Positions 11,265 through 24,475 of a stretch of DNA of 64,000 nucleotides are shown piece by piece. The DNA is from Chloroflexota bacterium (GTDB lineage Bacteria > Chloroflexota > Limnocylindria > P2-11E). Position numbers and translations under genes: made by a program. Numbering within the stretch: position 1 is the stretch's first letter; the number at the start of each line of letters is the position of its first letter. Below the pieces are notes generated by a model. The model made no database searches and had not been told where the DNA came from. It saw only the letters and a list, made by a program, of their open reading frames with translations. The stretch spans positions 36,072 through 100,071 of the forward strand of contig VBDX01000128.1 in NCBI GenBank assembly GCA_005881885.1. Reading direction: 5' to 3'.

Positions 11265-12037
11265 ACGTACTCGCGCGTCGCGATCCGGCGGTGAAGCTCG
11301 CGGTGACGCTGGCGATCTCGCTCGTTCTGCTCTTCGTCATCGACCCCGTCACCCCGCTACTCTTCCTCGCCGTCGCGATCGCCGCAGCGGTCGCGGGAGG
11401 TGCCCGCCTGAGCACGATCGTCCGCGCTCTCGTGCCGCTCTCGGTACTTGGCATTGGCTTCGTGTGGAGCAACGCGGTGTTCGCCGCGACGCACGAGCCC
11501 CCAACGTGGACCATCGGGCCCTTTCACGCGACCGAGGCCGGTCTGCGCTTCGGGCTGGCCATCGCGCTCCGGGGTCTCGCGATCGGAATGCTGTCACTCG
11601 CGTTCGTATGGACGACCGATCCGACCGATCTCGTGGTGAGCCTCATCCGCCACGCGCATCTTCCGTTTCGGATCGGCTATCCGTTGCTCGCCGGCTACCG
11701 CTTCCTGCCGTTCTTCGCCGACGAGTACGCGCAGGTCCGCATCGCGCGACGAGTGCGCGGGTCGGTCGCGCGCGGTCCGTTCGGCCGCATCCGCGAGGCG
11801 ACCGGAGAGCTGGTCACGCTCCTGTCGGACGCGACCCGGCGCGCGACTCGGATCGCGATCGCCATGGACGCCCGCGCGTTCGCCGGTGCGCGGGAGCGCA
11901 CCTACTGGCGCGAGGCGCCCCTCACACTCGGCGATCTCGTCTTCGTGATCGTGGCGATCGGTTTCGTGGCGGGGCTCCTCGCGTTCTCAGGCGCGATGGG
12001 CTGGCTCCGCCTGTGGGACGGGCACTTCTCGGCCTAG
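11261..12037 (+). CDS. ykoC: energy-coupling factor T component (YkoC-like)
   Basis: CbiQ-like: DPAVKLAVTLAISLVLLFVIDP...RATRIAIAMDARAF; operon context. Confidence 0.87.
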   Translation: MNVLARRDPAVKLAVTLAISLVLLFVIDPVTPLLFLAVAIAAAVAGGARLSTIVRALVPLSVLGIGFVWSNAVFAATHEPPTWTIGPFHATEAGLRFGLAIALRGLAIGMLSLAFVWTTDPTDLVVSLIRHAHLPFRIGYPLLAGYRFLPFFADEYAQVRIARRVRGSVARGPFGRIREATGELVTLLSDATRRATRIAIAMDARAFAGARERTYWREAPLTLGDLVFVIVAIGFVAGLLAFSGAMGWLRLWDGHFSA

Positions 12038-12069: not shown

Positions 12070-12321
12070 TCAGCGGTAGACATCCTTGCGGTGTCTCACC
12101 ACGTGGAGGTGGACTTCTCGTGCCCCCACGTCGTAGCGGATCCGGTAGTCGCCGACCCTCCAGCGCCATCGCCCGATCCGGGGACCGTGCAGCTTGCGAC
12201 CGCGATAAGGGTCGGCACGCAGGCGGGCCAGCGCCTTTAGGACTTGTTCTTGGATCGGCCTTGGGAGCTTGCGGAAGTCGCTCTCGAATACCTTCGAGGG
12301 GATGATCTCGAAGGTCGGCAG
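12070..12321 (-). CDS. RelE/ParE-family toxin (not in ORF track; CTG start)
   Basis: LPTFEIIPSKVFESDFRKLPRPIQEQVLKALARLRADPYRGRKLHGPRIGRWRWRVGDYRIRYDVGAREVHLHVVRHRKDVYR; immediately after the antitoxin stop. Confidence 0.85.
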   Translation of the reverse strand: MPTFEIIPSKVFESDFRKLPRPIQEQVLKALARLRADPYRGRKLHGPRIGRWRWRVGDYRIRYDVGAREVHLHVVRHRKDVYR

Positions 12322-12615
12322 CTAGCGGCTCCGGTAAATCGCTCGCAGCGCTGCGAGACTGCTCACCTCGCCGCGCCGGATCTGCGCCGCTGACGTCCGA
12401 AGGGCCTTCTTCAGCGCGGGATCGCGCTCCTCCGCCCGAAGCTCAAGGAGCTCTTCGTACTCGCCGAGCGGCACCAGTGCTACTTTCGGAAGGCCCTTCT
12501 TCGTAAGGACAAAGCTCTGACCCTGCTCGCTGGCAAGACGGATGAGCCGACCTAGGTGTGTGCGAGCGGTGAACGCATTCACGATCGTCGGTGCCTTGGG
12601 TGCCTTCGCCGCCAT
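12322..12615 (-). CDS. Phd/YefM-type antitoxin
   Basis: NAFTARTHLGRLIRLASEQGQSFVLTKKGLPKVALVPLGEYEELLE. Confidence 0.85.
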   Translation of the reverse strand: MAAKAPKAPTIVNAFTARTHLGRLIRLASEQGQSFVLTKKGLPKVALVPLGEYEELLELRAEERDPALKKALRTSAAQIRRGEVSSLAALRAIYRSR

Positions 12616-12764
12616 CGCAACTCCTTTTTCCAGCGCCAGCCGCAGCCTATCTTAACTAGTTGAAATCGAAGGGGGGAAGCGGATGCTGGTGGTTACCGCG
12701 GCGGAGCTATTTTCCATTTTTGCTAATCGACCCAGAAAAGGCCGGGCTGTATGTTGCGCTGTAT

Positions 12765-13007
12765 ATGCCAGCAATACGCACGCAGGTCTATCTGACAAAG
12801 GAACAGCGCCAGAAGCTCGATTCGCGACGCCGGCGTGAGCATAAGACGCTGGCGGCGGTGGTTCGCGACGCCATCGATGCCTACGTCAGCAAGGAGAAAC
12901 CAGCAGACGTGCGGAAGACCCTCGACGAGACCTTCGGGGTAGCCCCAAAGTTCAGCGTTCCATCTCGCGACGAGTGGGGGCAGTATGCCCGGCGCGTCCG
13001 AACGTAA
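12765..13007 (+). CDS. CopG/ribbon-helix-helix-like antitoxin
   Basis: RTQVYLTKEQRQKLDSRRRREHKTLAAVVRDAIDAYV. Confidence 0.75.
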   Translation: MPAIRTQVYLTKEQRQKLDSRRRREHKTLAAVVRDAIDAYVSKEKPADVRKTLDETFGVAPKFSVPSRDEWGQYARRVRT

Positions 13008-13137
13008 CGTCCTTCTCGACACCGACGTCTTCGTCGACCACGTGCGCGGAGCGCCCGGGGTTCCCGGTCCGCCAAAAGCGCCGAGGTTTGAGGCGGCTTT
13101 TCGACCGTTGGAGAGGGGAGTAGTCCGCCGAAAGTAG
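12985..13137 (+). pseudogene. truncated PIN-domain (VapC-like) toxin
   Basis: starts NVLLDTDVFVDHVRGA as in PIN toxins, then loses similarity; 50 aa only. Confidence 0.6.
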
Positions 13138-22939: not shown

Positions 22940-23907
22940 TTCTGTGCGCCGCCCTTCTCGAAGCGATCGTACGCCCGCACGATGCGGGCGACGAGCTCGT
23001 GGCGAACGACATCGCGATCGTCGAAGTCGACCATGGCGATCCCTTCGACGCCGTCGAGAATCTCGCGGGCGAGGACCATGCCGCTGCGGTCTCCGGCGAG
23101 GTCGATCTGCGTGACGTCTCCGGTCACGACGGCCTGCGAACCGAAGCCAAGCCGAGTGAGGAACATCTTCATCTGCTGCGGCGTGGTGTTCTGCGCCTCG
23201 TCCAGGATGATGAACGCCTCGTTCAACGTCCGGCCACGCATGTACGCCAGCGGGGCGACCTCGATCTCGCCGCGCTCCTGCGCGCGGGCGAAGCGCTCGG
23301 GAGGCATGAGCTCGTAGAGCGCGTCGTACAGCGGCCGCAGGTAGGGATCGATCTTTTCTTGCAGATCGCCGGGCAGGAAGCCGAGCCGCTCCCCCGCCTC
23401 GACCGCGGGGCGCGTCAGGATGAGCCGGCTCACCTTGCGATCGCGGAGCGCGGCGACGCCCATCGCGACCGCCAGATAGCTCTTCCCGGTGCCGGCTGGT
23501 CCTTTCGCGAACACCAGGTCGTACTTGCGGATCGCATCGATGTAGCGGCGCTGGTTCTCCGACTGCGGAGCGATCCGCTTTCCGCGCACGGTCGTCGCGA
23601 CGATGTCGCGCATCTCGGCAGGGGCGACGACCGGCGCTTCCTTGGCGTCGCCGATCAGTCGCTCGAGCGCGGGCTTGCGCAGCGACTGATCGCGGCCCGA
23701 GAGCGTGCGCATCGCGCCGACGAGATCGCCGACGCGCGCGACCGCCTGCGCGTCGCCGCTGATGCGCAGCTCCGCGCCGCGCGAGACGATCTTCACGCTG
23801 AACTCGCGCTCCAAGCGATCGATGTTCGCCTCGTTGTCCCCGGTGACGAACATCATCTCGTCCGGGTCCGGGATCAGGATCGTGATCTGCGAAGGCGCCG
23901 CGGTCAT
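22936..23907 (-). CDS. phoH: PhoH family ATPase
   Basis: [46 protein letters not shown]. Confidence 0.96.
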
Positions 23908-24395
23908 GCCGCGCCCTCCTTGAGGAGCGCACCGACCACACCGGAGACCACCTTGCCGTCGGCGCGGCCTTTCGTCTCCGCGATCACTTTTGGCATGACG
24001 AGCTTCGTGTCCTGCGGACCCTTCGCGCCCGTCTCGGCGATAACGCGGCGCGCGATCTCGCGGATCTTCGATTCGTCCAACTGCTCAGGCAGGTACGCGT
24101 TGATGAACCCCAGCTCTTTCTCCTCTTTCTCCACCAGATCGTCGCGTCCGCCTTTGCGGAACGCCTCGATCGAATCGCGCCGCATCTTCGCTTGCTTCGT
24201 CAGCACTCCTTCGACCGCGGCGTCATCGAGCTCGCTGGGCCTGTGCTGCGCGAGCCACGCCTGACGCGCGGCCTCGTCCTTGCCTTCAGCGGTCAGGCGA
24301 TCGACCGCGGCACCGAGTTGGGCCTTCTCCTCGTTCTGGATCGCGGCGAGGAGAAAGCGCACCGTGTCGCGTCGGAGGATCTCGCCTGAGCGCAT
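23904..24395 (-). CDS. yqeY: GatB/YqeY domain protein
   Basis: [16 protein letters not shown]...[21 protein letters not shown]. Confidence 0.9.
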
Positions 24396-24475
24396 GGCGG
24401 TCTTGAGGTCGCCCTCGAGCCTCTGCTTCAGTTGCGCGCCGATCGGGTCTTGCTCCTAGCGCCTACGGCCGCTTG

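Follow-up and report, generated by a model that had tools for sequence, protein, structure and literature searches.

How is a small toxin translated when its frame begins directly behind the stop codon of its antitoxin and offers no usual start codon (ATG, GTG or TTG) at its N-terminus? The question is raised by a toxin-antitoxin pair on the minus strand of a 64,000-nt stretch of a Chloroflexota contig (VBDX01000128.1), referred to here as the window. The antitoxin, a PhdYefM-type protein of 97 aa (12322..12615, minus strand; PF02604, 1.6e-11; TIGR01552, 2.1e-6), has an ordinary ATG start preceded by AAGGAG and terminates at TAG (12324-12322), and its frame is also the frame of the toxin, an 83-aa member of the RelE/ParE superfamily followed by TGA (12070..12321, minus strand, with the stop at 12072-12070). 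The antitoxin gene thus lies directly upstream of the toxin gene and adjoins it at the TAG, which is the layout of a type II module. The minus-strand junction, read directly from the window, is CGGAGCCGC TAG CTG CCG ACC TTC GAG, in which a Shine-Dalgarno-like GGAG within the last antitoxin codons (12329..12332) is placed 7 nt before the CTG proposed as toxin start codon (12319..12321; GGAG-CCGC-TAG-CTG), and the adjoining stop and start codons present the layout of termination-reinitiation. The earliest in-frame ATG, GTG or TTG is a GTG far into the protein, at codon 65. An earlier note on this DNA had described a RelE-type toxin missed by the open reading frame track, in the frame of its antitoxin with only TAG between them, 83 aa long from a CTG with GGAG 7 nt upstream, and lacking a usual start at its N-terminus; the intact frame, the profile and fold matches and direct reading at 12324-12319 bear out each of these points. 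The small toxin gene behind its antitoxin gene very probably begins at CTG.

The 83-codon frame is a genuine gene and not a chance one, as indicated by its Pfam match (ParE_toxin, PF05016, 2e-8), by a closest homologue (L021, 52% identical) which is likewise encoded behind a PhdYefM-like antitoxin, and by the predicted structure and its fold match. No NCBIfam profile matched the toxin at E <= 0.1, and its nearest solved relative by sequence is T. thermophilus RelE (2khe, 9.4e-8). The AlphaFold model obtained with a 12-row alignment has a mean pLDDT of 93.2, and its top Foldseek matches are all RelE, with 2khe as the best (E 2.5e-5, TM 0.82, 33% identity) and M. jannaschii and M. tuberculosis RelE as the next-best PDB matches. 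The first strand (residues 5-8) directly follows the CTG, so that the strand would be missing from a protein started much further downstream. The window toxin retains the conserved RelE residues R55, G57, D58, R60, R78 and Y82; R60 and R78 are invariant and Y82 nearly so among 12 relatives, R60/R78/Y82 are placed like R61/R81/Y87 of RelE, and the toxin is a candidate for ribosome-dependent mRNA cleavage of the RelE type.

Compared with the RelE toxins of known structure (2khe; M. tuberculosis RelBE2, 3g5o; M. jannaschii RelBE, 3bpq), the window toxin is alike in its full-length fold, in the R60/R78/Y82 pattern and in having its partner antitoxin directly upstream, whereas the module differs in the CTG start and in a PhdYefM instead of a RelB antitoxin. 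The gene order, with the PhdYefM antitoxin first and the RelE-superfamily toxin second, is shared with the YefM-YoeB and Axe-Txe operons, but the toxin fold is nearer to RelE than to YoeB (YoeB 2a6r ranked 11th) and the CTG start again sets the present pair apart. Translational control within the operon is known for Axe-Txe (PMC8708949).

In the homologues, ATG or GTG stands at the CTG column or at most a few codons away. L021 has GTG exactly in this column, in a GTGA overlap with the antitoxin stop, while L022 shows a TAA-ATG junction, L019 (a paralogue in the same genome) TGA-GTG, the congeneric L005 TAG-GTG and L002 TGA-ATG; the pairing of PhdYefM with this toxin recurs in L021, L022 and class relatives. 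Because ATG and GTG fill that column, CTG occupies the start position, and the window toxin combines a CTG at this conserved place with the lack of any usual start close by. The earlier note had treated ATG or GTG at this place in homologues as fatal to its reading. Such codons are there, so that taken literally it fails; yet they mark the start column and do not refute a CTG start, because toxins of the window's family, yqeY and one ruvA carry CTG in the start column as well. The toxin frame relative to the antitoxin frame varies among homologues, which makes readthrough doubtful as a shared mechanism.

The pair is placed between an EcfT-like permease gene, which ends at 12037, and a response-regulator gene running from 14267. 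A contig of the congener G010 spans both flanks and has no match to the pair between them, which suggests that the pair was acquired as an insert. Relatives of the toxin were not found in viral contigs, and plasmids gave distant ones only; 16S rRNA was not found in the draft genome. The plus strand at 12762-13137 carries an RHH antitoxin and then a VapC (PIN) gene that is recognisable for about 22 residues and diverges thereafter, and since its homologue in G007 (L400) is intact, the neighbouring VapC looks broken.

The reading that we favour, and hold to be moderately probable, is a type II pair of a PhdYefM antitoxin and a RelE-fold toxin in which the toxin is translated from the CTG. The CTG is probably a real, weak start, served by ribosomes that have just completed the antitoxin, and reinitiation is our best guess as to how the toxin is translated. 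A ribosome would terminate antitoxin synthesis at TAG, be held near the junction by GGAG and restart on the adjacent CTG with initiator tRNA; toxin output would then be small, later than and proportional to that of the antitoxin, and the weak codon would keep the antitoxin in excess. The known ATGA, GTGA and TAATG termination-reinitiation junctions are similar in their adjacent or overlapping stop and start codons and in the Shine-Dalgarno-like motif within the upstream gene, but the present junction differs in that the first base of its start is C. Caliciviruses and influenza B are known to relax the choice of start codon in termination-reinitiation (PMC5972666). In Salmonella Rhs, experiments have demonstrated that a toxic bacterial protein starts weakly at CTG (PMC7043789). 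The Rhs case resembles the present pair in its weak CTG start and in an antidote made from the same locus, but its start is internal to the rhs gene, its toxin is unrelated and there is no reinitiation after an antitoxin. Annotated bacteria very rarely use CTG starts, and bacterial start-codon data list CUG in 2 of 61,358 AUG switches and 1 of 5,080 GUG switches (PMC5622118). Searches of the open-access literature found no lineage reported to start its type II toxins at CTG.

Just downstream of the junction, a 9-bp RNA hairpin with the arms ACCUUCGAG and CUCGAAGGU (12290..12315, minus strand; z -2.1 for a 101-nt stretch) possibly modulates toxin reinitiation. Structures of this kind are reported to reduce reinitiation (PMC7518266); such hindrance counts against a restart, yet it would fit a low toxin output. 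An unusual initiator tRNA was considered as the cause of CTG use and rejected, the CAU anticodon and the three G-C pairs of the anticodon stem being ordinary. The initiator tRNA genes of five family genomes, the window's included (L380, L382, L384, L387 and L390), have T1 facing A72. The usual feature of initiator tRNAs at these positions is a C1.A72 mismatch.

Profile and family searches across 177 genomes of the class yielded about 100 RelE-type loci, which were scored as lacking a usual start when no ATG, GTG or TTG occurred in codons -12 to +2 of the domain without crossing a stop. By this rule a usual start is missing from 9/22 toxins of the window's GTDB family and from 2/59 in the rest of the class (p 7e-5), the nine including L126, which is probably degenerate; L081 and L201 lie at contig ends and were left unscored. 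Besides the window toxin, the loci comprise L118 with TAG CGG GGA CTG, L129 with an intact pair in which the toxin CTG overlaps the antitoxin stop as CTGA, L196 with CTG and an antitoxin that also has no usual start, and L124 (G000:C27), the second RelE pair of the window genome, with a TAG-ATC junction and GGAG 8 nt upstream, whereas the PhdYefM-paired toxins L123, L128 and L133 show no plausible start candidate. A clean CTGA overlap in an intact RelE-type pair was also found outside the family (L103). At six PhdYefM-RelE loci of the family (L101, L107, L108, L111, L123 and L132) the antitoxin frame and the toxin gene, which are in different frames, overlap by a constant length of ~120 nt.

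PIN (VapC-type) toxins served as an independent test of start usage, both toxin families having been chosen because the window raised the question. A usual start is missing in 16/50 PIN toxins of the window's family and in 0/30 of family f3, which belongs to the same class (p 3e-4), and restricting the comparison to the best 30 of each gives 9/30 against 0/30 (p 0.002). Pooled over both toxin types, the figures are 25/72 in the family and 2/89 outside (p 3e-8), where this and the other toxin p-values assume independent loci, an assumption that is true only in part. Several family PIN toxins read CTG ATC xTC GTx GAC, the CTG standing at the Met position, and clear CTGA overlaps occur in seven intact pairs (L260, L269, L280, L285, L322, L328 and L334). 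The first base of NTGA overlaps is A in 3, G in 11, T in 6 and C in 11 family PIN toxins; for longer gene pairs the counts are G 16, A 12, C 5 and T 3, C thus accounting for 5/36, and two of these five C cases have an in-frame ATG right behind. Shine-Dalgarno motifs before PIN CTG starts (6/14) were not significantly commoner than before usual starts (7/34). The assignment of L279, L282 and L332 as PIN CTG starts is uncertain. The idea that every CTG near a PIN domain is a start was rejected, as CTG is confined to the domain itself in L286, L327 and L335, and three CTGA junctions of f3 were not counted as CTG starts, ATG or GTG being located two codons upstream.

CTG starts were also encountered in genes other than toxins. 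The yqeY gene behind rpsU (23904..24431, minus strand; PF09424, 4.7e-37) has CTG in its start column (24431-24429), and among nine congeners the column holds CTG in seven, the window genome included, and TTG in two. An ATC or ATA four codons upstream provides an alternative in the other genomes but is absent in L242, where the CTG forms a CTGA overlap with the rpsU stop and is the only possible start. In ruvA of G023 (L263:871), CTG stands at the universal Met1, with position 2 of the RuvA_N profile aligned to residue 2, and it overlaps the ruvC stop as CTGA behind an upstream GGAGGG. CTG makes up only about 20% of the Leu codons in the window. A codon-usage screen detected coding before the first usual start in 17/349 family genes and 0/141 genes of f3, although several of the 17 are noise and seven are yqeY; genome-wide start statistics draw on some 480 kb of sequence from the family. 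Response regulators of the family without a usual start numbered 0/30, and a survey of window genes against congeners, made noisy by antisense frames, found CTG in 0/134 inferred start-column codons. CTG starts thus exist in the window's family and appear to be much commoner in toxins; stop/start junctions with CTG seem to be tolerated there, above all those of toxins, where low output is wanted. Two further window genes are without a usual start at their beginnings. In plsY (about 33281, plus strand), the place where most congeners have GTG reads CAC and then ATA, possibly an AUA start or an error, and a frame at about 1751 (minus strand), TYALYLESGPQKKTTLVH, is HicB-like by eye.

The main rival to a translated CTG is loss of the start, by which a GTG or ATG mutated to CTG and the nearly silenced toxin survives, disarmed, next to an antitoxin that still works. 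The enrichment of non-usual starts in toxins, which bear such a loss better than other genes, is in line with this, as are the truncated VapC next door and the L196 antitoxin without a usual start, and part of the excess may indeed be start loss in view of L123, L128 and L133 with no plausible start at all. The CTGA overlaps alone cannot separate the two explanations, because T and G are set there by the stop and a lost start could only become CTG. Start loss is nevertheless rather unlikely to account for the window toxin, since the toxin frames are open, full length and free of internal stops, the conserved RelE residues are kept, PIN toxins without a usual start amount to none in f3, and the CTG evidently used in yqeY and ruvA is left unexplained by it.

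A more distant prospect, which we regard as improbable, is that the toxin arises without a true start, either by amber readthrough into an antitoxin-toxin fusion, as the earlier note had offered among its options, or by resumption in frame at the next codon after termination. The direct adjacency of TAG and CTG in one frame would suit both, and E. coli ribosomes deprived of recycling factor do read on in frame past a stop (PMC9955659), a precedent for resumption. The toxin is out of the antitoxin frame in L021 and in all CTGA overlaps, however, which tells against the proposed fusion, and the same-frame homologues (TAG-GTG, TGA-GTG, TGA-ATG and TAA-ATG) conserve no particular stop and continue with usual starts, while GGAG fits initiation; judged from these sequences, readthrough is unlikely as a general mechanism. 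Least probable of all is a sequencing or assembly error in this one metagenome-assembled genome, with C called in place of G and GTG as the real codon. TAGCTG differs from the TAGGTG of L005 by a single base, and the genome is a 234-contig draft and the single copy of its species compared. Starts of this kind are seen in independent drafts of the family, though, many of which would have to carry a similar error, the yqeY CTG recurs in seven genomes and f3 drafts from the same source are without such starts, all of which makes an error at the junction unlikely.

Beyond the single locus, translation of the toxin from CTG leads to a broader proposal, which we put forward tentatively and with somewhat less than even confidence: in this uncultivated GTDB family, CTG is a regular fourth NTG start at stop/start junctions, mostly those of toxins, and sets the ratio of toxin to antitoxin. 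Start lists limited to ATG, GTG and TTG, like that behind the open reading frame track, cannot call CTG toxins and make their antitoxins seem orphans; if the proposal is true, gene callers ignoring CTG miss a large share of the family's toxins, and some "orphan" antitoxins of the family may have unrecognised toxins. With about one third of its examined RelE and PIN toxins lacking a usual start, the family would provide a natural test of the translational setting of toxin-to-antitoxin ratios, and the same lineage would be a natural test of how strictly a ribosome that restarts next to a stop codon selects its start codon.
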